From positions 9,620,804-9,684,803 of the forward strand of contig OX235277.1 in assembly GCA_944472155.2 (NCBI GenBank): a stretch of 64,000 nucleotides of DNA, in the 5' to 3' direction. Shown one piece after another: positions 11,717 through 56,760 of this stretch. Source of the DNA: Trichobilharzia szidati. Taxonomy: Eukaryota; Platyhelminthes; Trematoda; Strigeidida; Schistosomatidae. The notes beneath the pieces were generated by a model. That model saw nothing but the letters and a program-made list of their open reading frames with translations, was not told the origin of the DNA and made no database searches. Each line of letters starts with the position of its first letter. The stretch's first letter is position 1. A program made the translations under genes and the position numbers.

Positions 11717-11844
11717 ACAAAGTTTAACTAGAAAGAGTATAAAAAGTAATAAGTTACTTAATCACAGATAAACACGTTTTATACAATAGACAAGGAAAAT
11801 CCGGGTAGGATGAGTCATGTTGAGACGAAAAAAAATCAAGTTTT

Positions 11845-12206: not shown

Positions 12207-12636
12207 CTAGTCATTTGATAAACATAAACTGGTTAAGCGTTTTACGTCGATTTCCAACAAGGCCTCCCGAGGAAAGGGTGGTACTGTATTTCCCGGTTAA
12301 CCCATTGTCCCCTCCAGAGTCAGTATCCCTGCTGAGCAGACAACACCTCGGTGACTTTGCAGCATGAAAATGAGCACCCCATTAACGCTCCCGCAGCGGT
12401 AGGTATTTTCCCACCCCCCACTGTCCAGGTCTCAACACAAACCGTGGCTGCTTCTCAGATGGTACATATTGCCCCACCTCAGCGGGTCATGACAACTCAC
12501 ACGGTCTGGTCACATAATTGCACTTCCACCTTGCAGAAAGCATACAACCACTGTCTTGCATTGTCCTTTTGCTAGTTATATTGGCCGCCCGCACAAAGCG
12601 CACACTTCCCAAACGCATCTCTGAACATTATCCGGC

Positions 12637-13540: not shown

Positions 13541-13687
13541 TTAACTGACTGTGTGATATATCTAATAAACAATAATAATACGGAATTTTCATCATTAGGC
13601 TCTACATTTATATATACACATTATAGTGAATGAATGAATTAGTCTTATGAACGACATTAATGCTGTTTGAATAACATCAAATCAATA

Positions 13688-14355: not shown

Positions 14356-15340
14356 AGAATTTGCAATAAGGTCAGAATTTATTCCAGCTTTTTTGTATTC
14401 AACAATGGAATCTCACCTCCATCTGCAAAACCGGTCAGAGATAATTCCTCCAGATCGAAGGATCATTCAGTTATGTCATACTTTGTCAGTTATGAAATCC
14501 AGCCGTTGCTTCTGTCTGGACTCTTGACTGAGTAATTTATAATCTTATATGTTGTTTATGCTACCTGACAAAATGGTGAATGGCCGTAATGGAACTGAGA
14601 GAGGTCTAAAGAAACATAACGTTCACTGGTGAGACATTCTTCCATGTCCTAAGCGACTCTACTCACCAACTTCAATACAGTTTTTAGGCAATACCACTAT
14701 CTATCTATCTATCCCTTTAGGCCGATTGTCATTGATAATTAGGTAAGCTTCATGTACTCAGGAAAGTGGGAAGGCAATTATTGCTTCCCGGTTGATAACG
14801 CGGTAGTTGATTTCTTCTTAAAATACCTAAAGTAGAAAGACCGTTAGTATTTGTGTGAACCCAGAGCGCAGGAGACAATTTCTGATTGGTTTATTTCCAG
14901 ATTGGACATTGATTGACTATATCAAAATCTTACCACCGGCTACAGACAACCCCAACGTAAGTCAGAAATGTGCAGACTTTGAGACTGGCATTTTTTTAAC
15001 CACCTCGCCTTACTTCCCCAGAGCGAAGAATGAGCATACCTAGCTAGTCGGTAATCTGACAGAAACTCCTTATAGCTGTTACATCCCTATTCGCCGGCAA
15101 TACAACTTCGCCTTCAGAGTAACTTACACTAACAGCTCATCAAGCGACCTTTCGGGAAGGATAGGGCCAACAGAAACATTCGTTCTACCATCTATGGATC
15201 TTTGGATCACTGGGATATACAAACCTGATCACCACACCATGTAAGCAGTCATTGGTCGCGTGCGGCATCGTTATTTATTTCATTAACTTCAGTCAAGTAA
15301 GAACGATAATTACGATGGCTCAAATACACGATTAACTTGA
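14356..15340. other. Unrecognised sequence
   Basis: A short CTAT repeat sits near 14695-14715. Open plus-strand stretches at 14855-15043 and 15045-15240 read as ordinary-looking protein (NPERRRQFLIGLFPDW; later YIPIRRQYNFAFRV), but I recognise no family and the frames are broken by stops. They may be remains of a retroelement ORF. Confidence 0.3.
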
Positions 15341-16261: not shown

Positions 16262-16480
16262 TGTAGACCATTAAGCCACTGGGATTCGATCTGATGGCCC
16301 ATGAAATCCAATTTCTGTCCGTGGCTGAATAGTCTACGAGGACCTTGTTTTAAACCCCAGTAGGTAAGTACTGCTGAAGCAGAGTCCCAAACTAGGACGA
16401 AACAGTTGTGTACAGTAGTCCTTCCTAGTTTTCTAATGGTACTCTAACTGATGTCAACTCGCGGCCAAACAGATGTAACC
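16262..16480 (+). mobile_element. Sm-alpha-like SINE with hammerhead-like core
   Basis: A tRNA-like head with an A-box-like GTGGCTGAATAGT (16321-16333) and a B-box-like GTTTTAAACCCC is followed by CTGAAGCAGAGTCC, a CAAACTA loop, GGAC and GAAAC (16371-16403). Stem II (GTCC/GGAC) and the GAAA arm are intact; the CTGATGA arm carries an insertion, so cleavage is doubtful. It lies just downstream of the hydrolase stop codon on the opposite strand. Confidence 0.6.
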
Positions 16481-19700: not shown

Positions 19701-22700
19701 CCAGATATGAGGATCTAATTGAAAAGTAAATATTTCTTAGCTCAATCTTTCTGTTTTCCAAAAAAAAATTAATATTTTGACGAGTTGATCATGGATTGAT
19801 ATCAGTTAGAGAACGATTGAAGGCCATAGTAGAGTACTGGACAGCTGTTTCATCCAACTAGTTTGGGAATCATCGGCAGTACGCACCCACCAACAGCGTT
19901 TGAAACCAGGACCTTCCGGTTACAAGGCAAGCTCGTATACCACTCAGCCACTGGGACCCGACTCAATGGACCATGAATTCCAACTTCTACCAATTCGTGA
20001 TGTTAGCGCGACCACCAACCAATGTCATCGGTGGGACATCCATCCTCACACGTGACATCCTCGGCCGATGCACATCTGATATCAATGGTCGGCCTGCTAA
20101 ATTTGGGCTGCCGATATCACATGATGAAAATTCCATACTTGTATCAAAACTAATGTGTGGAGTCAAGCCATAATAAAATAAAATTAATTCACTTCAATTC
20201 AATGGTACTCGAACTGAATTCCCTCGGTAACCAAACTTAAGACCAAATTTCATGTAGTTTTTAAAAAAATACGAAAAGACTTCATCACGAACCAACATCA
20301 ATTAGAGATGTACTGAAGACAAAGTAATAGTTGTTTCTTCCTAGTTCCGACTCTTCAGCAGCGCATTCCAACCCTTAAGGATCCATATCTCCACAAAACT
20401 CATAGATTAAATATACAGATGTTTATTAAATGTCCTTAAACCTAGAATTTTTCTAAATATATACTCAATATCAGCAGAGGAAAATGAAACGAAAATATTG
20501 AAAACAAAAATAAAATTCACCTTTAAAGCGATCCGCATATCGACAGCACTTTGAGAACTACAGGCATCAGCTACAATGACAACTTTGTATTTATCTTCGA
20601 TTAATTGTAAAGCTGTTTGAAGAACACATATATGCGTCTGAATAAAAAATAATGCGGGAGAGAAGACAAAAGCACAGGAGTTTTAGTAGACTGATGAGTG
20701 ATGGTGACGAGCACAGATAAGAGAATGAATGGTACAATATCCTCCAAACCCATCTCTTACTTAATTATGCTTATTCGATTTGAATCAGACGAGACAGTTT
20801 TTGACTGACAGGCAGTACAACCTGAGATGTGCACTTCCTCCTATTTCGGACTCATCAGCGCGGGATGTATTCGAAATCTCCAATGAGTGACGGTTTTCCC
20901 CTCACACACTGAGACTGAAACCCAGTCAAAGCAGTATCCACTCAGTCAGTCACTTGGACTGTGTGTGAGTCGTCTCTTGTGCAACGAGTATTAGTTATAA
21001 TTATTTCCCGTTGATTGGTTGGCCTCTGTTGATGAGTCTCAAACAAGACGAAATGTGCATGCTAGATTCCAATGCTAGTCGCCATTCACAAAATATTATT
21101 ATTATCTCCTTGAGTTCCGACTAGAGAATAAGGGGTTCAGCAGAACATCTCCATTTTGTCGTGTTCCCTGATGTACTGTTTAGCTGGCTCCACTATTGCC
21201 TACAAGCTTTCATCTCCTCCTCGGACGATTTCCTTCATGTCAACCTCCAAAGTCGTCATTTTCCACTCGGTTCCAAAACTGGCTTTAGGTTGATGAACAT
21301 CTTCCTTATCTTTCCGATTTTCGCTTTGAAATCCTGCAGTTGAAACGATTCTACGCAGATGAATGAATGTGGATTCATATTCTTTCCGTGGGTAATGATT
21401 GTTGGTGCTGGTTGTTATTGTTGTTGATTGGTTATCCTCATCACCTCCGTCTTCCCTGTGTTCAGCTGGCGTCCTGTCTTTGCTGGCTCTGCAGCCACTC
21501 TGTTGGTTTTCACCTGCAATTCTTCGAGTTTGTGTGAGTGACATCAGATATAAATCATCTGCGAAATCGAGATCTTCTAGAGACTTCTTATGCATCCAAC
21601 GTAATCCTGTCTTCTGGCTCCCCATTCATGGTGTGCTGCATAATCCAATTCACCACAATCAGGAATACCATTGTCGGTGATAATAGACAGCCAGCTTGTC
21701 TTACTCCTGTATTCACTTCGAACGCCTCGCTGAGTTTTCCGTTGTGGATCACTTGACACATGCCACTGTCATATAGCCAGCTATTGAATGAGGTTGATAA
21801 AGATTCAGGCAATGCATGCGCTAGTGTTGAAGTAGTCTCCAAATTATTTCTCGGTCAACGCTGTCTGTCAAAGACCTTTTCGAAGTCGATGAAGTTGACG
21901 TACAGCTTTGACTGCCATTCTATGCTGTGTTCGATAATGATGATGCGTATAGTTGCAATTTGATCAGCACATGATTTGCCTTTTATGAATGGAGCCTATG
22001 CCGATCGCAGTTCTGCTTTCCGTGCACCTTTTATTCTCTCCAGGATGACGCGACTTGATATTTTATTTGGCATGGATAAGAACATGATTCCGCGCCAGTT
22101 CTTTCAGGGGTCTAAGTCACCCTTCTTCGGTAGCTTGACGAGGTAGACAATGTTTCTTCCACTAAGTAGGCACCTTTCACTCTTTCCATACATTTTTGCA
22201 ATAGTGGCATCAGCACATCCACTGCTATCTCTGGATCCATTTTCAGTGTTTCAGCATGAAGGAATTCCATCTAGTCCTGTTGCCTTTCCCGCTGACTTTC
22301 AGTAGCTTGATTACACTCAATACTTGGAGGATTGGTATCCACTGGCAGTTCTACAAGTTGCACATGGTAGTCGATTCACAAGCATCTTTTGAATGAAGTG
22401 ATCAGTCTATGACTATCTTTCATTGATTTCATCAGTGTTAATCTCCTCACCAAATGACATCATGTTAATCCTCAGAATATCGTAAAAGTGTCTGCCTTGC
22501 TGGGAGCCAATATGTCAATGAAAATCAATTAACTAAAAGTATGTCCTTCTCCCAGCTTAAATATTAAAATACACGCTATTTGGTCATAGTTTTACACTAG
22601 TAACTAGTGCAACGTGTCTAGTCCTTTCTTTGGTGCAGACTGAATTCTATCAGTCAGGTTTTACAATGTGGACACCATTCTAGGTAGCTCGCCGTCACAG

Positions 22701-23847
22701 TGCACATTGATTTGATGATATTAGATTATTATTATTATTGTTTCCTTTAATTCCTAGAGGAACATAGGGTTTTAGCCGTGCATCTCCATTGGGTTCGATT
22801 CTCTGCTAGAGTCTTCACCTGGCTCCAAGTCTGCCCACACGCTTTCATCTCCTCTTCACATGATCTCCTCCAAGTCACTCTTGCACTGACGACCAACTCG
22901 CCGCTTCCCTTTCGGGTTCCACTCGACCAATGGCTTGTCTAGTGATGTCACTTGATGGTTTGTTTTCTCAGAGTATGGCCAATCCATCTCCATTTCTTCC
23001 TGCCTATTTGTTTCACAATCGGTTCCTGCTGGGTTGGTTCGCTCATTGACAGACATCTCTGTTGCTGATCTTTACTGGCCGGCCATCTGATCTTGAGTAT
23101 TGAGCGAAGAAAACTGTTAATGAAGGTCTGTAGTTTGTTTGAGATGCTCTTTATGACGCGCAGTGCAAGTCTCTGATCCGTATAGTAGCAATGACTTCAC
23201 ATTGGAGTTGAAAATCCGGATCTTATTTTTGATGCTGAAGTAGTGCTGTTGACCTCCACACAGACTTGAGAGTAGTGAAAGATTGTCTTGCTTTTCCGAT
23301 TCTTGCTCTGATATCCTCGTCAGTTCCGCCTGTAGTTGAAACGATGGTTTCCAGGTGGGTAGGTAAAGAAGGATGTTTCTTTCAGGTTCCTCCCATTTAT
23401 GCTGATCGTTGTCTCTTGTTGTTTTTCTTGTCCAGGAATTTTCATTACCTCTGTTTTCTCTATGTTCACCTGAAGTCCTATCTTCTCTGGATGCTTCTTC
23501 TGCCAACTTGTTGCTTTTCGCTTGCATATCTTCCAGTTTGTGGGAAATCAGACATATATCATCGGCGAAGTCCAGATCCTCCAAGTTTTTTGTGTGAGTT
23601 CATTTTAAGCCTGTTTCCTCATTGCGCGTCGGTGGCACAGTGGCTGGGATGTTCGCCGACCATGCACATGGTCCAGGGTTCAATCCCCGACCGACGGACT
23701 CCTTTACCTCGCCAAACCAGTAATAAAAAGCCGGTAAAGAAGAACGGTCAGGCATGAGGCTAGCAACCTCATCCTGTAAAAAATAAACACTGCTACAGAA
23801 ACTTCAAGCCTCTAGCCTGAAGCCCTATTTCTACTGGAAACGTGAAG

Positions 23848-28356: not shown

Positions 28357-29390
28357 TTTTGGTGTGGTTGTGTTCTCTGAGCTGGATGGTTTGGTTGCGA
28401 AGCTTTCATTGCTCTACTGAGCAACATCTTCAGCGCATACTTCGATGTGAAGTGAGCTTTTAGAATTCTCTATGAGTTTATTAGTCATCTCTTCTAGTAA
28501 CCTTGAACGTGATTGGTTGTTTTCGTGTGACATTTCACCCCCTAGTTTGCTTGTCTCGGTGCTGGTTGCTTCTTTGGTCTGAATGTCGTTAGTCATTCCT
28601 TCTGCTAACCTTGAACGTGATTGGTTGGTTTTGTGTGACTTCTCACTTTCTAGTTCACTTGTTTTGGTGTTGACTGTTTCCTTGACCTGAAGTTTGACTT
28701 TGTTTTTGTGTGAATTTCTTCGTATGGATTGGTATATTTTGTCAATCTCTATGTGTCTATTGATTGCTGATTCATTTGAATACCAGGCCTCTAGGAATTC
28801 TCTGGCATTTTTGCAGTTCCCTTTGTCTAAGATTTGAACATTGTCCCAGTCGAATTGGTGCCCGTGGTTGTCTGCATGTAGTGATATGAGGGAGTGTATG
28901 TCGTGTCTTTTGACAGCTAGTTTGTGTTCGTGAATGCGAAGACGAAGAGGGCGTCCACTTTGACCAATGTAATGTTTGTCGCAGTCGTTGCAACTTATCT
29001 TGTAGATGACGTTAGTTTTGTCTTCTTTTGCCGTTGAGTCCTTTGGTTTACATAGAACTGAGTGTAGTGACTTTGTTGGTTTATGAGCGACATCGATTCC
29101 AAAAGGTTTGAATAGTCTTGCAGTGATTTCGGAGATATCTTTTATATATGGTAGGACGACTTTCTTTGTGTTTTCGCTGGTGGCCTTTGATTTGGTTGGT
29201 TGAGCTGGGGGTAGATGTCTTTTGATGAACCAATCACGTTCAAGGTTACTAGAAGAGATGACTAATAAACTCATAGAGAATTCTAAAAGCTCACTTCACA
29301 TCGAAGTATGCGCTGAAGATGTTGCTCAGTAGAGCAATGAAAGCTTCGCAACCAAACCATCCAGCTCAGAGAACATAACCACACCAAAAC
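28357..29390 (-). mobile_element. Penelope-like element with GIY-YIG endonuclease between inverted arms
   Basis: The minus-strand ORF 29274-28414 (286 aa) holds a full GIY-YIG nuclease of Penelope type: NVIYKISCNDCDKHYIGQSG (GIY-YIG core, residues about 88-107), the conserved RPLRLRIHEHKLAV arginine/histidine helix, then HGHQFDWDNVQIL and EAWYSNESAINRH with the metal-binding glutamate. The N-terminal reverse transcriptase is missing. The C-terminal part has two diverged repeats with NQSRSRL. About 162-bp arms (28357-28519 and 29229-29390) are inverted copies of each other, and both ends of the ORF lie inside them, so its first about 15 residues are encoded by the reverse complement of its own 3' end. 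Confidence 0.85.
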
Positions 29391-30175: not shown

Positions 30176-30242
30176 TTCAGTGTAAAAGGAGATCTGAGTA
30201 ATGCCTTTAATATTTTCATTTTTCCAGATTTAACTTCTATTT

Positions 30243-30779
30243 CAGAGTTATAAGCAGATTGGATGTTGGTGTTAGTCAGTATTTACAACGTCGTTGGATG
30301 AGCCGACGACACTTGTGGGCAGCAGCTTTCAGGGAGCATGTACTGACTTTGGGTAATGATACCAACAATCGAGTAGAAAGTTCTCACAAGCAGATGAAGC
30401 GGTACTTGCTTAGATCAGGTAGTCTGCATAAAAGCATGCTGAAGGTTTACAAATGGTTTCAACTAAGTAATTCTAGAATAGAGCAGGAGTCCATGATTGC
30501 TCAGTCGCGTTCCCTCAAGTATTCATGTTCCGAACGCATAATACCAATTTTACGCCAGCTGACGCCATACACTGCGAAGAAAGTGATCGCTGATTATGCA
30601 AAGCGACGATGGACTTCTTTTCAGTTTGAAGCTTTTGATTATATCTTCTTGGATGACAATGGGAGACAAGTAGAGGTGGATCTGCGCGCATGCACATGTA
30701 CTTGTATGACGTTCCAGACTTGTCGGTATCCCTGTCGACACTTGCTGATGGTGCATTTAAAAACGGCGTGTTTCACAGG
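30243..30779 (+). CDS. MULE/ZSWIM-type protein, exon with SWIM zinc finger
   Basis: Reads WAAAFREHVLTLGNDTNNRVESSHKQMKRYLL, the C-terminal end of the MULE transposase fold, then FEAFDYIFLDD and the SWIM zinc finger: Cys-x-Cys (CTC) and Cys-x-His (CRH) in ACTCTCMTFQTCRYPCRHLL. The DDE catalytic core, about 200 residues in active MULEs, is absent: only about 70 bp separate this exon from the previous coding piece. The exon ends at ACAG|GTAAAA and joins in phase with 31042. The protein is either a domesticated DNA-binding factor or, more likely given the broken 5' exons, a deleted transposon copy. Confidence 0.65.
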
Positions 30780-31041
30780 TAAAATACCCTTTTTTGAAAC
30801 TTGTATATTCATTTACACGTAAGATATACTAGATTGCCACCTGAAGTATTCCCTATTTTATGTCTCCATAGTTAATGCATATTAACCTACTCCTAACTGA
30901 CTGAAATTCGTAGATACTAAAATGTATATATATTTCATAAGGGTTTGTCTTAACTGAAAACAGGACGTAAGCACTGTCATTATTTATCCTTTAATATTGT
31001 GTGCATAATTCTATTTCCGTTTACCGTTCCACCTTTTGTAG

Positions 31042-41689: not shown

Positions 41690-42349
41690 TGGGCTCTACC
41701 GAGGATGCCAAAAAAGTTTTACTGACTTCTCAAGTCCTTTTTATAGGGAGGACCTGCAATATACGTGTTAGGCCAGATAGGCCATGGAAGGAAAGACGGA
41801 TGGCTAGGTAGTCGTCAGAGCTTATTCCTTCTGCCTCCATGGTTGTTCACGGCATTCCCGAACTGGTAACTGGGAACGCTTGTGAGAAGCACTGTCACGA
41901 TGTACAGCAACGGAGATGTTTGGCATCCCAGATGGCTCTGGGAAGTTCAGGGGCTGTCTCTATTTATAGACTGCCTCGACCCACTCACCTGATGTCAATT
42001 AACACGCCATGTCTGTTAGCTGTCAAGTTCAGCTCCCGAGACCACTTGACTACTGCTCTCCAGAGATGGTACGAGACCAAGGACAAGGTCAGCAGACACA
42101 TTCGCTGCTGCGAGAGCCGTCCTCGTACCCAAAGGAGAGAACAAAACGTTGTCAAGGAACATCCCCAACCCCTAGTCACAATATAGCGGTGCAGCACGGA
42201 CGATGATAGCCAGTGTCATCCAAGTGCTCTGGTTGAACCAGAAGAAAAGAACGCCAACAGGCCGGTTCCAGGGGAATCGGCCAACTAGTTCGTAGGATAA
42301 CTCCTCAACCGACAGCCCACATCACTTCAACCACTCCCAATACGGAGAC
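41690..42349 (+). mobile_element. CR1-like retrotransposon ORF1, RRM-like part (copy Y)
   Basis: Frame 41839-42186 reads VVHGIPELVTGN .. VSIYRLPRP .. LLAVKFSSRDHLTTAL, the pattern of an RRM-like nucleic-acid-binding ORF1 protein. It is homologous to the VILFNVPD segment of copy X, so this is a second copy, 5'-truncated near the (TTA)n tract. A stop at about 41770 interrupts it. Confidence 0.6.
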
Positions 42350-42934
42350 GTGGTGAGACTGACTACCAGTTGCCTGTACAGTAATGTGAGAGGGCTAAGA
42401 GGCAAAATAGCTGAACTTAGATACCTACAATCACGGCTGAACTCCAAAATCATAATACTGACGGAAACCTGGCTAACCCCTACGGTGGCAGACAGCGAAG
42501 TCAGTATAAATGATATGGTCCTAGTCAGGCGAGATAGGGACCTGAAAGAAAGAGGTGGAGTCGCCATATACGTCGACAAACAGCTCAGATGTGTTCACGC
42601 AATGGACCCTCCCCTCATTGAGTTCCCTGAGTCCATATGGTGCTATTTCACCGTTGGGTATTGTAAATATCTAGTGGGCAGCATTTATAGATCACCTTCA
42701 TGTGGAGCAGACCACAGCCAGATACTGGTGAATACAATTTCAGCGACACAAGACATGGATTATGATCAAATTGTCATAACTGGCGACTTCAATGCCCCAT
42801 CTCTTAACTTGATGACGGGATATGCCCATGATAGATTTGATCGAAATATGCTGCACACCATCAGGGACGCCGGATTCACTGAAAATGTCAGAATGGATAC
42901 TAGCAAGGGTCCAGGTGGGAAGTCTTCTAGACTA
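42350..42934 (+). mobile_element. CR1-like retrotransposon ORF2, AP endonuclease, left part
   Basis: ORF2 opens with the APE-type endonuclease: SCLYSNVRGLRGKIAEL (Asn block), ILTETW (catalytic Glu, 42456-42473), GSIYRSPSC, and ITGDFNAP (catalytic Asp/Asn, 42782-42793). The frame runs to GGKSSRL at 42933 and is then cut by the 348-bp repeat array. It resumes at 55164 with DYVLTS, the next conserved block. The nuclease nicks target DNA to prime reverse transcription. Confidence 0.85.
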
Positions 42935-43108
42935 TTTTTTTTTTGATTGAACACTAGTCAGTAACTAGTGTAATGTGTCTAGTCCTATCTTCGGTGCAGA
43001 CTGAATTCTATCAGTCATGTTTGCAATGTGGCCACCATGCTAGGTGGCTCGCCATTACGGTGCACTGTGAATTGTTGGTATTAGATGGTTGGAGGCAATC
43101 GGCAGGAA

Positions 43109-43153
43109 GCCTTGGACCTAGGTTTCGTGCTAGTTGGCACTCATCAGCAAGGC
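43109..43153 (-). ncRNA. Type I hammerhead ribozyme (one per array unit)
   Basis: Minus strand, in order: stem I strand GCCTTG; CTGATGA; stem II GTGC, loop CAACTA, GCAC; GAA; stem III ACC, loop TA, GGT; cleavage-site C (43115); stem I strand CAAGGC. All invariant core bases are present (CUGAUGA, GAAA, U16.1-A15.1, H17 = C). Stem I pairs 6 of 6, stem II 4 of 4, stem III 3-4 bp. Such short stem III forms are known in schistosome and metazoan retrozyme hammerheads, which often cleave efficiently only as dimers; a tandem array supplies exactly that. Cleavage would release unit-length RNAs of about 348 nt with 2',3'-cyclic phosphate and 5'-OH ends. Confidence 0.9.
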
Positions 43154-43190
43154 GTATCTGTAACCTTGAAGGAACTGATGTCCCTTCTGA

Positions 43191-43243
43191 GATTCGAACC
43201 CGCGTCACCCAGTGCTGCAGTCAGAGACGTTACCACTGAGCTA
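43191..43243 (-). promoter_or_regulatory. Internal RNA polymerase III promoter (A and B boxes, one per unit)
   Basis: A box TAGCTCAGTGGTAACG fits TRGCNNAGYNGG closely. B box GGTTCGAATC fits GGTTCGANTCC with one mismatch. The spacing of 27 nt is slightly short but usable. Position near the unit's 5' end fits a tRNA-derived SINE. No cloverleaf is preserved outside the boxes, so it is not a functional tRNA. Confidence 0.8.
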
Positions 43244-46200
43244 TTCAGGCTCGCGACTGACCTCCTGTAGGACTGTATTGGATATTTTTTTGATTGAACA
43301 CTAGTCAGTAACTAGTGTAATGTGTCTAGTCCTATCTTCGGTGCAGACTGAATTCTATCAGTCATGTTTGCAATGTGGCCACCATGCTAGGTGGCTCGCC
43401 ATTACGGTGCACTGTGAATTGTTGGTATTAGATGGTTGGAGGCAATCGGCAGGAAGCCTTGGACCTAGGTTTCGTGCTAGTTGGCACTCATCAGCAAGGC
43501 GTATCTGTAACCTTGAAGGAACTGATGTCCCTTCTGAGATTCGAACCCGCGTCACCCAGTGCTGCAGTCAGAGACGTTACCACTGAGCTATTCAGGCTCG
43601 CGACTGACCTCCTGTAGGACTGTATTGGATATTTTTTTTTGATTGAACACTAGTCAGTAACTAGTGTAATGTGTCTAGTCCTATCTTCGGTGCAGACTGA
43701 ATTCTATCAGTCATGTTTGCAATGTGGCCACCATGCTAGGTGGCTCGCCATTACGGTGCACTGTGAATTGTTGGTATTAGATGGTTGGAGGCAATCGGCA
43801 GGAAGCCTTGGACCTAGGTTTCGTGCTAGTTGGCACTCATCAGCAAGGCGTATCTGTAACCTTGAAGGAACTGATGTCCCTTCTGAGATTCGAACCCGCG
43901 TCACCCAGTGCTGCAGTCAGAGACGTTACCACTGAGCTATTCAGGCTCGCGACTGACCTCCTGTAGGACTGTATTGGATATTTTTTTGATTGAACACTAG
44001 TCAGTAACTAGTGTAATGTGTCTAGTCCTATCTTCGGTGCAGACTGAATTCTATCAGTCATGTTTGCAATGTGGCCACCATGCTAGTTGGCTCGCCATTA
44101 CGGTGCACTGTGAATTGTTGGTATTAGATGGTTGGAGGCAATCGGCAGGAAGCCTTGGACCTAGGTTTCGTGCTAGTTGGCACTCATCAGCAAGGCGTAT
44201 CTGTAACCTTGAAGGAACTGATGTCCCTTCTGAGATTCGAACCCGCGTCACCCAGTGCTGCAGTCAGAGACGTTACCACTGAGCTATTCAGGCTCGCGAC
44301 TGACCTCCTGTAGGACTGTATTGGATATTTTTTTTTGATTGAACACTAGTCAGTAACTAGTGTAATGTGTCTAGTCCTATCTTCGGTGCAGACTGAATTC
44401 TATCAGTCATGTTTGCAATGTGGCCACCATGCTAGGTGGCTCGCCATTACGGTGCACTGTGAATTGTTGGTATTAGATGGTTGGAGGCAATCGGCAGGAA
44501 GCCTTGGACCTAGGTTTCGTGCTAGTTGGCACTCATCAGCAAGGCGTATCTGTAACCTTGAAGGAACTGATGTCCCTTCTGAGATTCGAACCCGCGTCAC
44601 CCAGTGCTGCAGTCAGAGACGTTACCACTGAGCTATTCAGGCTCGCGACTGACCTCCTGTAGGACTGTATTGGATATTTTTTTGATTGAACACTAGTCAG
44701 TAACTAGTGTAATGTGTCTAGTCCTATCTTCGGTGCAGACTGAATTCTATCAGTCATGTTTGCAATGTGGCCACCATGCTAGGTGGCTCGCCATTACGGT
44801 GCACTGTGAATTGTTGGTATTAGATGGTTGGAGGCAATCGGCAGGAAGCCTTGGACCTAGGTTTCGTGCTAGTTGGCACTCATCAGCAAGGCGTATCTGT
44901 AACCTTGAAGGAACTGATGTCCCTTCTGAGATTCGAACCCGCGTCACCCAGTGCTGCAGTCAGAGACGTTACCACTGAGCTATTCAGGCTCGCGACTGAC
45001 CTCCTGTAGGACTGTATTGGATATTTTTTTTTGATTGAACACTAGTCAGTAACTAGTGTAATGTGTCTAGTCCTATCTTCGGTGCAGACTGAATTCTATC
45101 AGTCATGTTTGCAATGTGGCCACCATGCTAGGTGGCTCGCCATTACGGTGCACTGTGAATTGTTGGTATTAGATGGTTGGAGGCAATCGGCAGGAAGCCT
45201 TGGACCTAGGTTTCGTGCTAGTTGGCACTCATCAGCAAGGCGTATCTGTAACCTTGAAGGAACTGATGTCCCTTCTGAGATTCGAACCCGCGTCACCCAG
45301 TGCTGCAGTCAGAGACGTTACCACTGAGCTATTCAGGCTCGCGACTGACCTCCTGTAGGACTGTATTGGATATTTTTTTGATTGAACACTAGTCAGTAAC
45401 TAGTGTAATGTGTCTAGTCCTATCTTCGGTGCAGACTGAATTCTATCAGTCATGTTTGCAATGTGGCCACCATGCTAGGTGGCTCGCCATTACGGTGCAC
45501 TGTGAATTGTTGGTATTAGATGGTTGGAGGCAATCGGCAGGAAGCCTTGGACCTAGGTTTCGTGCTAGTTGGCACTCATCAGCAAGGCGTATCTGTAACC
45601 TTGAAGGAACTGATGTCCCTTCTGAGATTCGAACCCGCGTCACCCAGTGCTGCAGTCAGAGACGTTACCACTGAGCTATTCAGGCTCGCGACTGACCTCC
45701 TGTAGGACTGTATTGGATATTTTTTTTGATTGAACACTAGTCAGTAACTAGTGTAATGTGTCTAGTCCTATCTTCGGTGCAGACTGAATTCTATCAGTCA
45801 TGTTTGCAATGTGGCCACCATGCTAGGTGGCTCGCCATTACGGTGCACTGTGAATTGTTGGTATTAGATGGTTGGAGGCAATCGGCAGGAAGCCTTGGAC
45901 CTAGGTTTCGTGCTAGTTGGCACTCATCAGCAAGGCGTATCTGTAACCTTGAAGGAACTGATGTCCCTTCTGAGATTCGAACCCGCGTCACCCAGTGCTG
46001 CAGTCAGAGACGTTACCACTGAGCTATTCAGGCTCGCGACTGACCTCCTGTAGGACTGTATTGGATATTTTTTTGATTGAACACTAGTCAGTAACTAGTG
46101 TAATGTGTCTAGTCCTATCTTCGGTGCAGACTGAATTCTATCAGTCATGTTTGCAATGTGGCCACCATGCTAGTTGGCTCGCCATTACGGTGCACTGTGA

Positions 46201-49200
46201 ATTGTTGGTATTAGATGGTTGGAGGCAATCGGCAGGAAGCCTTGGACCTAGGTTTCGTGCTAGTTGGCACTCATCAGCAAGGCGTATCTGCAACCTTGAA
46301 GGAACTGATGTCCCTTCTGAGATTCGAACCCGCGTCACCCAGTGCTGCAGTCAGAGACGTTACCACTGAGCTATTCAGGCTCGCGACTGACCTCCTGTAG
46401 GACTGTATTGGATATTTTTTTTTGATTGAACACTAGTCAGTAACTAGTGTAATGTGTCTAGTCCTATCTTCGGTGCAGACTGAATTCTATCAGTCATGTT
46501 TGCAATGTGGCCACCATGCTAGGTGGCTCGCCATTACGGTGCACTGTGAATTGTTGGTATTAGATGGTTGGAGGCAATCGGCAGGAAGCCTTGGACCTAG
46601 GTTTCGTGCTAGTTGGCACTCATCAGCAAGGCGTATCTGTAACCTTGAAGGAACTGATGTCCCTTCTGAGATTCGAACCCGCGTCACCCAGTGCTGCAGT
46701 CAGAGACGTTACCACTGAGCTATTCAGGCTCGCGACTGACCTCCTGTAGGACTGTATTGGATATTTTTTTGATTGAACACTAGTCAGTAACTAGTGTAAT
46801 GTGTCTAGTCCTATCTTCGGTGCAGACTGAATTCTATCAGTCATGTTTGCAATGTGGCCACCATGCTAGGTGGCTCGCCATTACGGTGCACTGTGAATTG
46901 TTGGTATTAGATGGTTGGAGGCAATCGGCAGGAAGCCTTGGACCTAGGTTTCGTGCTAGTTGGCACTCATCAGCAAGGCGTATCTGTAACCTTGAAGGAA
47001 CTGATGTCCCTTCTGAGATTCGAACCCGCGTCACCCAGTGCTGCAGTCAGAGACGTTACCACTGAGCTATTCAGGCTCGCGACTGACCTCCTGTAGGACT
47101 GTATTGGATATTTTTTTTTGATTGAACACTAGTCAGTAACTAGTGTAATGTGTCTAGTCCTATCTTCGGTGCAGACTGAATTCTATCAGTCATGTTTGCA
47201 ATGTGGCCACCATGCTAGGTGGCTCGCCATTACGGTGCACTGTGAATTGTTGGTATTAGATGGTTGGAGGCAATCGGCAGGAAGCCTTGGACCTAGGTTT
47301 CGTGCTAGTTGGCACTCATCAGCAAGGCGTATCTGTAACCTTGAAGGAACTGATGTCCCTTCTGAGATTCGAACCCGCGTCACCCAGTGCTGCAGTCAGA
47401 GACGTTACCACTGAGCTATTCAGGCTCGCGACTGACCTCCTGTAGGACTGTATTGGATATTTTTTTGATTGAACACTAGTCAGTAACTAGTGTAATGTGT
47501 CTAGTCCTATCTTCGGTGCAGACTGAATTCTATCAGTCATGTTTGCAATGTGGCCACCATGCTAGTTGGCTCGCCATTACGGTGCACTGTGAATTGTTGG
47601 TATTAGATGGTTGGAGGCAATCGGCAGGAAGCCTTGGACCTAGGTTTCGTGCTAGTTGGCACTCATCAGCAAGGCGTATCTGTAACCTTGAAGGAACTGA
47701 TGTCCCTTCTGAGATTCGAACCCGCGTCACCCAGTGCTGCAGTCAGAGACGTTACCACTGAGCTATTCAGGCTCGCGACTGACCTCCTGTAGGACTGTAT
47801 TGGATATTTTTTTTTGATTGAACACTAGTCAGTAACTAGTGTAATGTGTCTAGTCCTATCTTCGGTGCAGACTGAATTCTATCAGTCATGTTTGCAATGT
47901 GGCCACCATGCTAGGTGGCTCGCCATTACGGTGCACTGTGAATTGTTGGTATTAGATGGTTGGAGGCAATCGGCAGGAAGCCTTGGACCTAGGTTTCGTG
48001 CTAGTTGGCACTCATCAGCAAGGCGTATCTGTAACCTTGAAGGAACTGATGTCCCTTCTGAGATTCGAACCCGCGTCACCCAGTGCTGCAGTCAGAGACG
48101 TTACCACTGAGCTATTCAGGCTCGCGACTGACCTCCTGTAGGACTGTATTGGATATTTTTTTGATTGAACACTAGTCAGTAACTAGTGTAATGTGTCTAG
48201 TCCTATCTTCGGTGCAGACTGAATTCTATCAGTCATGTTTGCAATGTGGCCACCATGCTAGGTGGCTCGCCATTACGGTGCACTGTGAATTGTTGGTATT
48301 AGATGGTTGGAGGCAATCGGCAGGAAGCCTTGGACCTAGGTTTCGTGCTAGTTGGCACTCATCAGCAAGGCGTATCTGTAACCTTGAAGGAACTGATGTC
48401 CCTTCTGAGATTCGAACCCGCGTCACCCAGTGCTGCAGTCAGAGACGTTACCACTGAGCTATTCAGGCTCGCGACTGACCTCCTGTAGGACTGTATTGGA
48501 TATTTTTTTGATTGAACACTAGTCAGTAACTAGTGTAATGTGTCTAGTCCTATCTTCGGTGCAGACTGAATTCTATCAGTCATGTTTGCAATGTGGCCAC
48601 CATGCTAGGTGGCTCGCCATTACGGTGCACTGTGAATTGTTGGTATTAGATGGTTGGAGGCAATCGGCAGGAAGCCTTGGACCTAGGTTTCGTGCTAGTT
48701 GGCACTCATCAGCAAGGCGTATCTGTAACCTTGAAGGAACTGATGTCCCTTCTGAGATTCGAACCCGCGTCACCCAGTGCTGCAGTCAGAGACGTTACCA
48801 CTGAGCTATTCAGGCTCGCGACTGACCTCCTGTAGGACTGTATTGGATATTTTTTTTTGATTGAACACTAGTCAGTAACTAGTGTAATGTGTCTAGTCCT
48901 ATCTTCGGTGCAGACTGAATTCTATCAGTCATGTTTGCAATGTGGCCACCATGCTAGGTGGCTCGCCATTACGGTGCACTGTGAATTGTTGGTATTAGAT
49001 GGTTGGAGGCAATCGGCAGGAAGCCTTGGACCTAGGTTTCGTGCTAGTTGGCACTCATCAGCAAGGCGTATCTGTAACCTTGAAGGAACTGATGTCCCTT
49101 CTGAGATTCGAACCCGCGTCACCCAGTGCTGCAGTCAGAGACGTTACCACTGAGCTATTCAGGCTCGCGACTGACCTCCTGTAGGACTGTATTGGATATT

Positions 49201-52200
49201 TTTTTGATTGAACACTAGTCAGTAACTAGTGTAATGTGTCTAGTCCTATCTTCGGTGCAGACTGAATTCTATCAGTCATGTTTGCAATGTGGCCACCATG
49301 CTAGTTGGCTCGCCATTACGGTGCACTGTGAATTGTTGGTATTAGATGGTTGGAGGCAATCGGCAGGAAGCCTTGGACCTAGGTTTCGTGCTAGTTGGCA
49401 CTCATCAGCAAGGCGTATCTGTAACCTTGAAGGAACTGATGTCCCTTCTGAGATTCGAACCCGCGTCACCCAGTGCTGCAGTCAGAGACGTTACCACTGA
49501 GCTATTCAGGCTCGCGACTGACCTCCTGTAGGACTGTATTGGATATTTTTTTTTGATTGAACACTAGTCAGTAACTAGTGTAATGTGTCTAGTCCTATCT
49601 TCGGTGCAGACTGAATTCTATCAGTCATGTTTGCAATGTGGCCACCATGCTAGGTGGCTCGCCATTACGGTGCACTGTGAATTGTTGGTATTAGATGGTT
49701 GGAGGCAATCGGCAGGAAGCCTTGGACCTAGGTTTCGTGCTAGTTGGCACTCATCAGCAAGGCGTATCTGTAACCTTGAAGGAACTGATGTCCCTTCTGA
49801 GATTCGAACCCGCGTCACCCAGTGCTGCAGTCAGAGACGTTACCACTGAGCTATTCAGGCTCGCGACTGACCTCCTGTAGGACTGTATTGGATATTTTTT
49901 TGATTGAACACTAGTCAGTAACTAGTGTAATGTGTCTAGTCCTATCTTCGGTGCAGACTGAATTCTATCAGTCATGTTTGCAATGTGGCCACCATGCTAG
50001 GTGGCTCGCCATTACGGTGCACTGTGAATTGTTGGTATTAGATGGTTGGAGGCAATCGGCAGGAAGCCTTGGACCTAGGTTTCGTGCTAGTTGGCACTCA
50101 TCAGCAAGGCGTATCTGTAACCTTGAAGGAACTGATGTCCCTTCTGAGATTCGAACCCGCGTCACCCAGTGCTGCAGTCAGAGACGTTACCACTGAGCTA
50201 TTCAGGCTCGCGACTGACCTCCTGTAGGACTGTATTGGATATTTTTTTTTGATTGAACACTAGTCAGTAACTAGTGTAATGTGTCTAGTCCTATCTTCGG
50301 TGCAGACTGAATTCTATCAGTCATGTTTGCAATGTGGCCACCATGCTAGGTGGCTCGCCATTACGGTGCACTGTGAATTGTTGGTATTAGATGGTTGGAG
50401 GCAATCGGCAGGAAGCCTTGGACCTAGGTTTCGTGCTAGTTGGCACTCATCAGCAAGGCGTATCTGTAACCTTGAAGGAACTGATGTCCCTTCTGAGATT
50501 CGAACCCGCGTCACCCAGTGCTGCAGTCAGAGACGTTACCACTGAGCTATTCAGGCTCGCGACTGACCTCCTGTAGGACTGTATTGGATATTTTTTTTTG
50601 ATTGAACACTAGTCAGTAACTAGTGTAATGTGTCTAGTCCTATCTTCGGTGCAGACTGAATTCTATCAGTCATGTTTGCAATGTGGCCACCATGCTAGTT
50701 GGCTCGCCATTACGGTGCACTGTGAATTGTTGGTATTAGATGGTTGGAGGCAATCGGCAGGAAGCCTTGGACCTAGGTTTCGTGCTAGTTGGCACTCATC
50801 AGCAAGGCGTATCTGTAACCTTGAAGGAACTGATGTCCCTTCTGAGATTCGAACCCGCGTCACCCAGTGCTGCAGTCAGAGACGTTACCACTGAGCTATT
50901 CAGGCTCGCGACTGACCTCCTGTAGGACTGTATTGGATATTTTTTTTTGATTGAACACTAGTCAGTAACTAGTGTAATGTGTCTAGTCCTATCTTCGGTG
51001 CAGACTGAATTCTATCAGTCATGTTTGCAATGTGGCCACCATGCTAGGTGGCTCGCCATTACGGTGCACTGTGAATTGTTGGTATTAGATGGTTGGAGGC
51101 AATCGGCAGGAAGCCTTGGACCTAGGTTTCGTGCTAGTTGGCACTCATCAGCAAGGCGTATCTGTAACCTTGAAGGAACTGATGTCCCTTCTGAGATTCG
51201 AACCCGCGTCACCCAGTGCTGCAGTCAGAGACGTTACCACTGAGCTATTCAGGCTCGCGACTGACCTCCTGTAGGACTGTATTGGATATTTTTTTGATTG
51301 AACACTAGTCAGTAACTAGTGTAATGTGTCTAGTCCTATCTTCGGTGCAGACTGAATTCTATCAGTCAAGCTTGCAATGTGGCCACCATGCTAGGTGGCT
51401 CGCCATTACGGTGCATTGTGAATTGTTGGTATTAGATGGTTGGAGGCAATCGGCAGGAAGCCTTGGACCTAGGTTTCGTGCTAGTTGGCACTCATCAGCA
51501 AGGCGTATCTGTAACCTTGAAGGAACTGATGTCCCTTCTGAGATTCGAACCCGCGTCACCCAGTGCTGCAGTCAGAGACGTTACCACTGAGCTATTCAGG
51601 CTCGCGACTGACCTCCTGTAGGACTGTATTGGATATTTTTTTGATTGAACACTAGTCAGTAACTAGTGTAATGTGTCTAGTCCTATCTTCGGTGCAGACT
51701 GAATTCTATCAGTCATGTTTGCAATGTGGCCACCATGCTAGGTGGCTCGCCATTACGGTGCACTGTGAATTGTTGGTATTAGATGGTTGGAGGCAATCGG
51801 CAGGAAGCCTTGGACCTAGGTTTCGTGCTAGTTGGCACTCATCAGCAAGGCGTATCTGTAACCTTGAAGGAACTGATGTCCCTTCTGAGATTCGAACCCG
51901 CGTCACCCAGTGCTGCAGTCAGAGACGTTACCACTGAGCTATTCAGGCTCGCGACTGACCTCCTGTAGGACTGTATTGGATATTTTTTTTGATTGAACAC
52001 TAGTCAGTAACTAGTGTAATGTGTCTAGTCCTATCTTCGGTGCAGACTGAATTCTATCAGTCATGTTTGCAATGTGGCCACCATGCTAGTTGGCTCGCCA
52101 TTACGGTGCACTGTGAATTGTTGGTATTAGATGGTTGGAGGCAATCGGCAGGAAGCCTTGGACCTAGGTTTCGTGCTAGTTGGCACTCATCAGCAAGGCG

Positions 52201-55163
52201 TATCTGTAACCTTGAAGGAACTGATGTCCCTTCTGAGATTCGAACCCGCGTCACCCAGTGCTGCAGTCAGAGACGTTACCACTGAGCTATTCAGGCTCGC
52301 GACTGACCTCCTGTAGGACTGTATTGGATATTTTTTTTGATTGAACACTAGTCAGTAACTAGTGTAATGTGTCTAGTCCTATCTTCGGTGCAGACTGAAT
52401 TCTATCAGTCATGTTTGCAATGTGGCCACCATGCTAGTTGGCTCGCCATTACGGTGCACTGTGAATTGTTGGTATTAGATGGTTGGAGGCAATCGGCAGG
52501 AAGCCTTGGACCTAGGTTTCGTGCTAGTTGGCACTCATCAGCAAGGCGTATCTGTAACCTTGAAGGAACTGATGTCCCTTCTGAGATTCGAACCCGCGTC
52601 ACCCAGTGCTGCAGTCAGAGACGTTACCACTGAGCTATTCAGGCTCGCGACTGACCTCCTGTAGGACTGTATTGGATATTTTTTTGATTGAACACTAGTC
52701 AGTAACTAGTGTAATGTGTCTAGTCCTATCTTCGGTGCAGACTGAATTCTATCAGTCATGTTTGCAATGTGGCCACCATGCTAGGTGGCTCGCCATTACG
52801 GTGCACTGTGAATTGTTGGTATTAGATGGTTGGAGGCAATCGGCAGGAAGCCTTGGACCTAGGTTTCGTGCTAGTTGGCACTCATCAGCAAGGCGTATCT
52901 GTAACCTTGAAGGAACTGATGTCCCTTCTGAGATTCGAACCCGCGTCACCCAGTGCTGCAGTCAGAGACGTTACCACTGAGCTATTCAGGCTCGCGACTG
53001 ACCTCCTGTAGGACTGTATTGGATATTTTTTTGATTGAACACTAGTCAGTAACTAGTGTAATGTGTCTAGTCCTATCTTCGGTGCAGACTGAATTCTATC
53101 AGTCAAGCTTGCAATGTGGCCACCATGCTAGGTGGCTCGCCATTACGGTGCATTGTGAATTGTTGGTATTAGATGGTTGGAGGCAATCGGCAGGAAGCCT
53201 TGGACCTAGGTTTCGTGCTAGTTGGCACTCATCAGCAAGGCGTATCTGTAACCTTGAAGGAACTGATGTCCCTTCTGAGATTCGAACCCGCGTCACCCAG
53301 TGCTGCAGTCAGAGACGTTACCACTGAGCTATTCAGGCTCGCGACTGACCTCCTGTAGGACTGTATTGGATATTTTTTTTGATTGAACACTAGTCAGTAA
53401 CTAGTGTAATGTGTCTAGTCCTATCTTCGGTGCAGACTGAATTCTATCAGTCATGTTTGCAATGTGGCCACCATGCTAGGTGGCTCGCCATTACGGTGCA
53501 CTGTGAATTGTTGGTATTAGATGGTTGGAGGCAATCGGCAGGAAGCCTTGGACCTAGGTTTCGTGCTAGTTGGTACTCATCAGCAAGGCGTATCTGTAAC
53601 CTTGAAGGAACTGATGTCCCTTCTGAGATTCGAACCCGCGTCACCCAGTGCTGCAGTCAGAGACGTTACCACTGAGCTATTCAGGCTCGCGACTGACCTC
53701 CTGTAGGACTGTATTGGATATTTTTTTTTGATTGAACACTAGTCAGTAACTAGTGTAATGTGTCTAGTCCTATCTTCGGTGCAGACTGAATTCTATCAGT
53801 CATGTTTGCAATGTGGCCACCATGCTAGGTGGCTCGCCATTACGGTGCACTGTGAATTGTTGGTATTAGATGGTTGGAGGCAATCGGCAGGAAGCCTTGG
53901 ACCTAGGTTTCGTGCTAGTTGGCACTCATCAGCAAGGCGTATCTGTAACCTTGAAGGAACTGATGTCCCTTCTGAGATTCGAACCCGCGTCACCCAGTGC
54001 TGCAGTCAGAGACGTTACCACTGAGCTATTCAGGCTCGCGACTGACCTCCTGTAGGACTGTATTGGATATTTTTTTGATTGAACACTAGTCAGTAACTAG
54101 TGTAATGTGTCTAGTCCTATCTTCGGTGCAGACTGAATTCTATCAGTCATGTTTGCAATGTGGCCACCATGCTAGGTGGCTCGCCATTACGGTGCATTGT
54201 GAATTGTTGGTATTAGATGGTTGGAGGCAATCGGCAGGAAGCCTTGGACCTAGGTTTCGTGCTAGTTGGCACTCATCAGCAAGGCGTATCTGCAACCTTG
54301 AAGGAACTCATGTCCCTTCTGAGATTCGAACCCGCGTCACCCAGTGCTGCAGTCAGAGACGTTACCACTGAGCTATTCAGGCTCGCGACTGACCTCCTGT
54401 AGGACTGTATTGGATATTTTTTTTGATTGAACACTAGTCAGTAACTAGTGTAATGTGTCTAGTCCTATCTTCGGTGCAGACTGAATTCTATCAGTCAAGT
54501 TTGCAATGTGGCCACCATGCACTAGGTGGCTCGCCATCACGGTGCACTGTGAATTGTTGGTATTAGATGGTTGGAGGCAATCGGCAGGAAGCCTTGGACC
54601 TAGGTTTCGTGCTAGTTGGTACTCATCAGCAAGGCGTATCTGTAACCTTGAAGGAACTGATGTCCCTTCTGAGATTCGAACCCGCGTCACCCAGTGCTGC
54701 AGTCAGAGACGTTACCACTGAGCTATTCAGGCTCGCGACTGACCTCCTGTAGGACTGTATTGGATATTTTTTTTTGATTGAACACTAGTCAGTAACTAGT
54801 GTAATGTGTCTAGTCCTATCTTCGGTGCAGACTGAATTCTATCAGTCATGTTTGCAATGTGGCCACCATGCTAGGTGGCCCGCCATTACGGTGCACTGTG
54901 AATTGTTGGTATTAGATGGTTGGAGGCAATCGGCAGGAAGCCTTGGACCTAGGTTTCGTGCTAGTTGGCACTCATCAGCAAGGCGTATCTGTAACCTTGA
55001 AGGAACTGATGTCCCTTCTGAGATTCGAACCCGCGTCACCCAGTGCTGCAGTCAGAGACGTTACCACTGAGCTATTCAGGCTCGCGACTGACCTCCTGTA
55101 GGACTGTATTGGATATTTTTTTTGATTGAACACTAGTCAGTAACTAGTGTAATGTGTCTAGAC

Positions 55164-55300
55164 TGGATTATGTGCTCACTAGTGACCAGCTGCTGGTGGA
55201 AAACTTTCAGATCACGACTCCCATAGGTCATAATATTCGACACAGTCCTCCGCGAGCGTTTACAGTGGGACAATACACAGCCCTATCTGTGTTATAACAA
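55164..55300 (+). mobile_element. CR1-like ORF2 endonuclease, right part after the array
   Basis: Continues the frame cut at 42933: SRLDYVLTSDQLLVENF, the last endonuclease block. The expected following SDH motif is not readable (ITTPIGHNIRH instead), and a stop comes at about 55297, so the copy was already or has since become defective. Confidence 0.75.
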
Positions 55301-55316
55301 CGCCAATTTCACCGAA

Positions 55317-55679
55317 ATGCAAAGACTTTTGTCTGAAGCAAATTGGCCAAAAAATTGGACAGAGCTTACAGTAGAGGAACACTGGGGAGTGGTAAAGGAG
55401 ATCATTCACCAGGCGGTCTCAGACACTGTTCCTTTAGTCACAACAAAAGCTAGGAAGCAACGTTCATGGCTAAATAGGGGGAAACAACGCCTTCTGCAGG
55501 CAAAACGAAAAGCCTGGTTTGTGTGGCGACTATCGAAGAGTCAACCCGAACATGAAGTGTACCTTGAACTTAGGAATCGATGTAACATACGAGTCCGGAG
55601 TGATAGAAGGACATTTCAGAGAAACCTCGCCAAAAAGCGTCTCGTGAACCCCCAAAAGCCTATACAGGTTTATGTCTGA
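55317..55679 (+). pseudogene. CR1-like ORF2, linker between endonuclease and reverse transcriptase
   Basis: 120 residues (MQRLLSEANWPKNWTEL .. HQAVSDTVPLVTTK .. RSWLNRGKQRLLQAKRKAW) form the helical linker usual before the RT in CR1/Jockey elements. A frameshift near 55675 separates it from the RT frame. Confidence 0.7.
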
Positions 55680-56760
55680 AAGAAAACCGACCAACCAGGG
55701 AGCTTGCAATCTAGTGGGTTCTGATGGGAAATCTCTTGCTAGTCTTGAAATGGCAGAGACATTCAGTCCAGCCTTTCACAGGCAACTGAACAGTAACGAG
55801 GATTTCGCCCCCACAAAACATCAAGATTACAATGCAAAACCAACGTGCGAAAACCTGCTGGGTACATTTAAAATTACCTCAGCTATGGTACTCGTAAAAT
55901 TGGGAAAGTTGGCTTCGGGAAAGTCTGCAGGTTGCGATGACATAAGACCATCCGTCCTGAAGCAGTGTTCAGAAAGTCTCTGCCAACCCCTAAGTGATCT
56001 GTTTCAACACTCCTTTGATGTAGGGAAACTTCCATGTGAATGGAAACGAGCCATCCTATCCCCTATCTTCAAGGGTGGTGACCGGCAGAACGCGACCAGT
56101 TACAGACCAGTTGCGCTACTTCCAGTGATATCGAAGATATTGGAAAGTCTCATTGACGACCACATGGGAAAATACTTCGACGGGCCTAACCTACTCCATG
56201 AAGCACAGCAGGGTTTCAGGAGGGGAAGATCCTGTGTGACGAATCTTCTACTAGCTTGGAACGATTGGACACTATCCTGGGATGTAAAGGTACCAGTCCA
56301 TGTGATCTTTCTCGACTTTGCGAAAGCATTCGACATAGTTCACCATGGTCTGCTCCTCCACAAAATAAGCAAGGCGGGTGTTTCTGGAGCACTTCTCGCA
56401 TGGCTGAAAGATTACTTAGGCGAGAGAGAATTCTGCACCAAAGTCTACCGCATCCGATCACCCTGGCACACCTCGGCATCAGGGGTTCCTCAGGGTTCTA
56501 TCTTAGGGCCGTTGATATTTTTGATTTTTATCAACGACCTGCCCTGTCAACTGAATTGCTCTGCGCTTCTTTACGCTGACGACGTAAAGATTTGGAGAGC
56601 AATAAACTCATCGGAGGACATCGACAGATTGCAGGCTGACCTGCAAACTCTAGGAGACTGGGCTCTGGCTAACGGAATGCCTTTCAACCTAAAGAAGTGC
56701 AAAGTAGTGCAACTTCATTCCGGTAGGTCACAGAGTGTAAATTACACCCTTGGTGGCTAG
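55672..56760 (+). pseudogene. CR1/Jockey-like reverse transcriptase
   Basis: 362 residues with all RT blocks: GKSAGCDDIRPSVLK, CEWKRAILSPIFKGGDR, SYRPVALLPVISKILE, EAQQGFRRGRSCVTNLL, motif A FLDFAKAFDIVHH (catalytic Asp, 56313-56333), motif B SGVPQGSILGPLIFLIFIND, motif C LYADDVKIW (YADD at 56571-56582) and the thumb-like DLQTLGDWALANGMPFNLKKC. The enzyme copies RNA at the nicked target. The domain itself looks catalytically complete, but frames before and after are shifted and the endonuclease is split by the array. Confidence 0.85.

Follow-up and report, generated by a model that had tools for sequence, protein, structure and literature searches.

How 35 nearly identical copies of a short, ribozyme-bearing element came to lie head-to-tail inside a long interspersed nuclear element (LINE) is the question raised by one locus of Trichobilharzia szidati, a blood fluke of birds (Schistosomatidae). 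The stretch analyzed (the window) comprises 64,000 nucleotides of contig OX235277.1 (assembly GCA_944472155.2, positions 9,620,804 to 9,684,803, forward strand), located on contig C7 (72,348,017 bases) of the 1.11-Gb genome that we searched for related copies. We consider it probable that the array is a multimer of a short interspersed nuclear element (SINE) resembling Sm-alpha and carrying a predicted hammerhead ribozyme, likely a metazoan retrozyme of the kind without long terminal repeats (non-LTR), and that it was inserted into the LINE by repeated reverse transcription of one RNA, probably a circle. The array is a real insertion, most likely of a retrotransposed multimer; the kind of element is known, and what appears to be new is the pattern of its joints, with two fixed end sites.

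Tandem Repeats Finder reported 35.1 copies of period 347 between 42937 and 55161 (99% matches), bearing out the 35-unit tandem array of about 348-bp units in a preliminary description of the window; its borders of 42935 and 55161 are refined by a target duplication to 42934 and 55156. With units numbered 1 to 348 on the sense (minus) strand, position 1 being the TATCC just past the A-run, the insert is organized as follows.

42934 to 55156, minus strand: entire inserted array, 12,223 bp lying between the target copies, its borders set by the target duplication
42945 to 55123, minus strand: 35 full units, head-to-tail, each with a body of 340-342 bp plus A7-A9
55124 to 55156, minus strand: 5'-truncated unit beginning at unit position 308, the 5' border of the array
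42934 to 42944, minus strand: terminal A-tail, the 3' border of the array, A10 and then T at the target joint
43233 to 43243, minus strand: A box of unit 1, TAGCTCAGTGG, at unit position 42; 35 exact copies in the insert
43191 to 43200, minus strand: B box of unit 1, GGTTCGAATC, at unit position 85; 35 exact copies in the insert
43109 to 43153, minus strand: type I hammerhead of unit 1 (RF00163, 43.4 bits), at unit positions 132-176; 34 others, one in each unit

Units are 347 to 351 bp long; all but one of the 35 bodies measure 340 bp, and 22 are identical. The distance from A box to B box is 43 nt, and the sense strand of the insert holds 36 A-runs of at least seven. Rfam Hammerhead_1 scored above its gathering score in all 35 units on the minus strand (33 units at 43.4 bits, E 8.7e-08 per match; two at 39.6 bits, E 1.6e-06). 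The boxes, the A-runs and a type I hammerhead in each unit thus agree with the preliminary description, except that the word "intact" holds for 33 of the 35, since the complete 45-nt motif is exact in that number and units 31 and 34 have a common helix II mismatch. Cleavage is predicted after unit position 170, between 43115 and 43114, the same position as predicted before. An exact count over the whole insert gave no TTTT on the sense strand, and since no unit holds a T-run terminator, a transcript of RNA polymerase III (pol III) would presumably not need to stop within the insert; a single TTTT-free unit would be unremarkable by itself, as we estimate about one occurrence to be expected per 340 nt. 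The array has a GC content of 49.1%. ARAGORN detected no tRNA across the window and Rfam no tRNA match within the units, and the array contains no stop-to-stop frame of at least 150 aa, that is, no reverse transcriptase plus GIY-YIG gene of its own.

The evidence that the array arrived by insertion lies in its two joints and in the LINE that they interrupt.

42926 to 42933, strand not applicable: left copy of the target duplication, 8 bp, TCTAGACT
55157 to 55164, strand not applicable: right copy of the target duplication, 8 bp, TCTAGACT
42296 to 42925, plus strand: left part of the interrupted LINE, with the endonuclease domain (Pfam PF03372, E 7.1e-05, below the curated cut-off; gap-free LINE protein match over the joint)
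55165 to 56757, plus strand: right part of the interrupted LINE, the endonuclease end and then the reverse transcriptase (Pfam PF00078, E 2.5e-31; frames broken)

Read on the plus strand, the left joint consists of TCTAGACT, one base, and the A10 tail as T10, and the right joint of a unit cut at position 308, TCTAGACT and the remainder of the LINE. Five of the eight duplicated base pairs also match the unit, leaving a certain minimum of 3 bp; among random place pairs in the window, a match of at least 8 bp occurred in 32 of 20,000. When the flanks are joined at one target copy, the LINE endonuclease frame is restored and aligns without a gap over the joint with two LINE proteins, P0001 of T. 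szidati (69% over 183 aa) and P0002 (63% over 161 aa). The relatives of the LINE show the empty site, and the array is an insertion with an A-tail at its 3' border and a truncated 5' border. Such borders make the insertion resemble target-primed reverse transcription, which is known for LINEs. A plain satellite would be expected to lack insertion joints, and here both array ends carry them. In addition, the array opens with a partial unit followed by a full unit, indicating that the founding copy had presumably already crossed a unit border.

A search of the whole genome for the unit, as the preliminary description had proposed, found both dispersed and tandem copies, at no fewer than 34 loci on eight large and six small contigs. 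The search, in which 39 candidates out of 1,664 were scored, gave 135 matches; the array of the window is not among them. We grouped these matches into 34 loci and fetched stretches of all 34. Ends were analyzed at the 23 loci with both ends in the stretch, the other 11 running beyond it. A target duplication of at least 8 bp was present at 18 of the 23 loci and one of at least 10 bp at 15, compared with 4.7% and 0 of 2,891, respectively, in controls built by combining left and right ends from different loci. By orientation, 15 loci are head-to-head inverted and eight have one orientation, a count from which very short second arms could have escaped (the A-tail arm of inverted locus L031 is only about 33 nt). 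The inverted multimers span about 1.3 to 14.5 units, most with target duplications. Inserts with a duplication of at least 8 bp (17 of 417-6,414 bp and the window insert of 12,223 bp) all exceed one unit, in a sample biased by the query.

The ends of these inserts fall at two places in the unit. Of 38 sense 3' ends at the 23 loci, 22 lie at the A-tail and 15 at about unit positions 205-216 (that of L053 after its duplication was trimmed off), leaving one at position 112 (L037). At the inverted loci, one arm ends at the A-tail in 15 of 15 and the other at about 205-216 in 14 of 15, the exception again being L037. Single ends in six of the 11 loci set aside (L036, L038, L041, L043, L063 and L065) lie at 206-211 or 345-348. 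An array of 18 units, L035, ends at position 208 and has a 10-bp duplication. As a separate observation, the left edge of the duplication reads AAC/A (the slash marking the edge) in five of 18 insertions (L034, L044, L047, L053 and L062, among 17 loci and the window), a figure that stands without a control and may point to a cut preference of the inserting enzyme.

Other features of the family were seen at some of these loci. An array of the window unit longer than that in the window (G000, C378) extends over at least 20 kb, from 36000 or before to 56665, with its right end at unit position 209. L045, L046 and L048 belong to a subfamily that has about 90% identity to the unit, arrays of its own and hammerheads mostly of 45.3 bits. 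Strong hammerheads of 51-54 bits lie outside the analyzed elements (L054, 241-285; L062, 2947-2995; L045, 7771-7815, in a scan of 20 of 35 stretches); they are nearer the Rfam consensus and perhaps form a second ribozyme family.

If each insert was copied from one RNA, its copies should resemble one another, and comparison of trimmed element spans indicates that each insertion likely involved more than one round of copying of the same sequence. Copy pairs inside a locus had the same non-consensus base at 3.29% of positions and differing bases at 1.14%; the corresponding values for pairs from different loci were 0.18% and 4.50%. In the 15 loci that we chose as young (about 96-99% to the unit), disagreement was 0.69% within and 2.17% between loci. 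Private hammerhead variants are present in both arms of L051 (3/3 copies), L062 (2/2) and L033 (4/5), and the A-run is constant in L035 (18/18 A6) and L033 (5/5 A6). This likeness of the copies within a locus, together with the 8-bp duplication, the A-tail border and the empty site in LINE relatives, strengthens the retrozyme-like reading that had been given to the array.

The two insertion end sites coincide with the two longest unpaired runs in the predicted fold of the circular monomer, which measure 23 nt (positions 335-9) and 19 nt (195-213), the next longest being 9 nt. The second of these runs corresponds in unit 1 to the following feature.

43072 to 43090, minus strand: second-longest unpaired run of the predicted circular RNA (unit positions 195-213), near which other insertions end; putative second start of reverse transcription

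Ranked by mean unpaired probability, position 208 comes first among all 348 of the circular monomer and position 346 comes 14th; the circular fold has a z-score of -4.9 against 100 shuffles. From this model we infer that the end sites are start sites of reverse transcription. For the ribozyme, helix I and helix II have predicted probabilities of about 0.9-1.0 both for the hammerhead alone and within the monomer. In a two-unit transcript, the unconstrained minimum-energy fold is a double hammerhead: the units pair with each other through helix I and through a palindromic helix III of 8 bp (ACCUAGGU), around an open core. This form gains 2.6 kcal/mol over the single one; with shuffled flanks (n=60), the double hammerhead formed in 5, two single hammerheads in 5 and neither in 50. 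Dimers of axolotl hammerheads cleave much better (PMC7229834).

A mechanism that could join these observations is as follows. Pol III transcripts would start at the A and B boxes and could run across units; the hammerheads would cut them, either as single motifs or as the double hammerhead of a two-unit transcript, and a host ligase would close unit-length pieces into circles. A reverse transcriptase would then dock the 3' ends of the cut target at one or both of the unpaired loops, that is, the A-tail (positions 335-9) and the AC-rich loop (195-213), and copying would run round the template, so that one start would give a head-to-tail multimer such as the window array and two starts a head-to-head inverted multimer. 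The 35-unit array would afterwards have been partly reshuffled by unequal exchange. In its most specific form, which we put forward tentatively and which could well be wrong, the RNA circle may be a two-handled template: the 3' ends of the target would dock at two loops, and reverse transcriptases, probably Penelope-like, would travel in turn round this one circle, writing both tandem and head-to-head multimers of a single RNA molecule.

Two features make a Penelope-like enzyme the most likely candidate, namely the fixed second end and the apparent extension of both target ends; an L1-type LINE could also have supplied the enzyme. In PMC11167929, both strands of the target are extended by a Penelope enzyme, which also starts at two sites within the RNA, most often in an AC-rich stem loop. 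Fixed internal end sites with head-to-head inserts, a Penelope-like insertion pattern, were found at 14 of the 15 inverted loci.

Several observations weigh against this account. The two-unit query and the ranking by score favor long inserts in our sample, and sub-unit copies exist as two shorter, older pieces, one at L058 (36-212, 79%) and one in the window itself:

22599 to 22726, minus strand: old fragment of the array-unit family, unit positions 199-325, 86%

Five of the 23 loci have duplications of only 5-7 bp, within the range of chance. When each position is scored across every copy of its locus, discordance is commoner than a shared private variant (169 and 76 positions, respectively, of 5,794), and the same holds for positions comparable across both arms (129 and 47). 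The tails of L034 range from 6 to 15. Discordance is heaviest in old loci (L062, 27 discordant and none shared; L049, 30 and 1; L050, 18 and 3), which would fit later mutation but is no proof of it. Shared variants within a locus could also come from a homogeneous array transcribed as one long linear RNA; a circle would give them in a simple way. In the folding models, helix I is displaced in a 95-nt context, and in growing transcripts its predicted probability falls from 0.96 to 0.42-0.02 once at least 20 nt follow the ribozyme; this loss with 3' extension argues against easy cleavage by the single motif. In PMC11167929, hammerhead activity was dispensable for insertion in vitro. Cleavage, circles and expression are putative here, and nothing in the sequences tied the family to any one Penelope or LINE element.

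The array itself also departs from a plain copy of one monomer. Tails alternate between A7 and A9 over much of its left half, and tail matches exceeded shuffles at lags 2 (P 0.036) and 4 (P 0.015), without correction for the 12 lags examined. The variant G100T recurs in seven of 35 units, units with common variants sit 3-5 apart in several cases, and the right third is the most diverged, units 25-35 holding 15 of the 21 variants counted (the four differences of unit 34 being scored as two). Since the tails alternate and variants recur, a single monomeric circle alone is insufficient; the pattern could be explained by a dimeric template, by later exchange or by the two combined. The dimeric template and the base beyond the A-tail (A10T) count as no more than hints.

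The same periodicities, the spacing of variant-sharing units and the divergence of the right third are what ordinary satellite growth would offer in its favor: one short retrotransposed insertion of little over one unit, with unequal crossing-over or slippage then generating nearly all of the 35 units at the site. The W36.2 arrays, which reach 450 copies, also speak for it. This alternative nevertheless has to accommodate insertion joints that are still on both array ends, a founder that already crossed a unit border, inverted multimers of about 1.3-14.5 units elsewhere, most with target duplications, and L035, which with its 18 units and 10-bp duplication looks like the window array. We regard growth in place as a serious alternative but a somewhat doubtful one; the readings are not exclusive in likelihood, because a multimeric insertion may later have grown in place.

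Less likely still, in our judgment, is insertion by an L1-type LINE with twin priming, in which the first nick primes at the A-tail, priming from the second target end occurs within that RNA and produces 5' inversions, and the template is a linear multi-unit transcript of an older array. LINE insertion as generally understood fits the A-tails, the 5' truncation, the 8-15 bp duplications and the head-to-head inversions; a LINE copy is present in the window, and homogeneous arrays that could have been the source exist (L035 and C378). The second start distinguishes the two mechanisms: the second priming place varies in L1 twin priming, so a scattered start would be expected, whereas it is fixed at 205-216 in 14 of the 15 inverted loci. 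Moreover, hammerheads would presumably cut long transcripts.

Two further explanations are highly improbable. Nested insertion, in which each SINE entered the A-tail of the preceding one, would leave duplications invisible inside A-runs and finds a parallel in known tandem SINE multimers (PMC10702118), but it needs 35 full-length events, all in one direction, and tail lengths are uniform or alternating in several loci. An assembly artefact is equally hard to credit given the unique LINE flanks on both sides, the matching duplication, the restored frame, the absence of N in the array and the many further multimers in the genome, although near-identical units are hard to assemble and the exact copy number may be wrong.

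At stake in the choice between these readings are the return of retrozymes to the genome, the enzyme that copies them and the reason for their tandem layout. If insertion from an RNA circle is correct, the joints would be the first genomic footprint of the rolling-circle reverse transcription of retrozymes, and ribozyme-bearing tandem satellites could arise in a single step from one circular RNA instead of growing by crossing-over. The double hammerhead, predicted only for multi-unit transcripts, would then tie the tandem layout to ribozyme action. The joints supply a fixed pair of end sites, a testable predicted RNA structure and a worm genome with many close copies.

Elsewhere in the window, positions 3240-14356 hold three tandem copies of one repeat (93-98% similar, period about 3.5-3.8 kb) with broken minus-strand frames, which look Penelope-like in having stretches resembling reverse transcriptase and GIY-YIG; Pfam gave no support. 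A frame with a weak GIY-YIG match (28417-29295, minus strand; E 0.028, below the cut-off) is perhaps a Penelope-like endonuclease. The plus-strand frame at 30211-30822 has a SWIM zinc finger (E 5.6e-06) and possibly came from a DNA transposon. A thioredoxin frame differs from T. szidati thioredoxin P0019 at one of about 70 residues. Pairs of A and B boxes outside the array, at about 23633 (plus strand) and 19150-19225 (minus strand), perhaps mark another tRNA-derived SINE. Sub-threshold hammerhead motifs lie on opposite strands about 170 bp apart at 20826-20858 (minus) and 21024-21067 (plus), and a weak hammerhead-like motif of 24.9 bits at 16371-16418 (plus); all three were rejected as relatives of the unit, to which they have only short core matches.

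Compared with known systems, the array resembles the SINE-derived satellites of reptiles, which are tandem repeats made from tRNA-related SINEs (PMC10702118); these repeat parts of SINEs, with a ribozyme unmentioned in the part of that source considered, whereas in T. szidati the whole unit repeats and inserts as multimers. Penelope-like elements have in common with the T. szidati inserts tandem or partial-tandem and head-to-head copies, a hammerhead and, if our reading of the end sites is right, internal starts of reverse transcription (PMC11167929, PMC3846280), and several of the head-to-head Penelope inserts have 8-10 bp duplications (PMC3846280). The unit differs from them in having no frame of at least 150 aa and in end sites about 138 nt apart, as opposed to a tail of 30-40 bp.

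Another close likeness is to Sm-alpha/W36.2 of Schistosoma mansoni and Sj-alpha of S. japonicum, which are likewise SINE-like elements of schistosomatids with a type I hammerhead; they have a tRNA-type region. Sm-alpha and Sj-alpha units measure 332-335 bp, and those of S. rodhaini 347 and 337 bp (PMC8490949, PMC2770079). The autosomes of S. mansoni contain 42,670 Sm-alpha pieces, 858 of them full-length, and W36.2 is tandem on W scaffolds in 173-450 copies (PMC8490949), so the tandem layout does not set our array apart from Sm-alpha, as had been supposed. What differs is the genus, together with multimers bearing target duplications and two fixed end sites, which we did not meet in the parts of the Sm-alpha literature covered. 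The literature searched likewise yielded nothing that joins Trichobilharzia with a hammerhead ribozyme and, in the parts of the papers covered, no report of retrozyme inserts with a fixed pair of end sites or with private variants in common.

Schistosome repeats have already been counted among metazoan retrozymes, with a tRNA, alongside Nematostella repeats with 15-bp duplications (PMC4918200). Metazoan non-LTR retrozymes of coral, mussel and axolotl consist of tandem units of 150-450 bp with a type I hammerhead, target duplications and a GC content below 50%, and the type I hammerhead repeats of a coral reach 62 tandem units (PMC7229834), so that tandem hammerhead arrays are not a new kind either. 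The window array has the same features: a type I hammerhead in 35 of 35 units, units of 347-351 bp, a GC content of 49.1% and a duplication of more than 4 bp (8 bp, of which 3 are certain). Repeated copying of circles into tandem complementary DNA by LINE or Penelope enzymes was proposed in 2020 (PMC7229834, PMC7761336), for elements that seem to be without promoters or any motif revealing a helper (PMC7761336). In contrast to retrozymes so described, the T. szidati units bear pol III boxes, and their joints point to two start loops.

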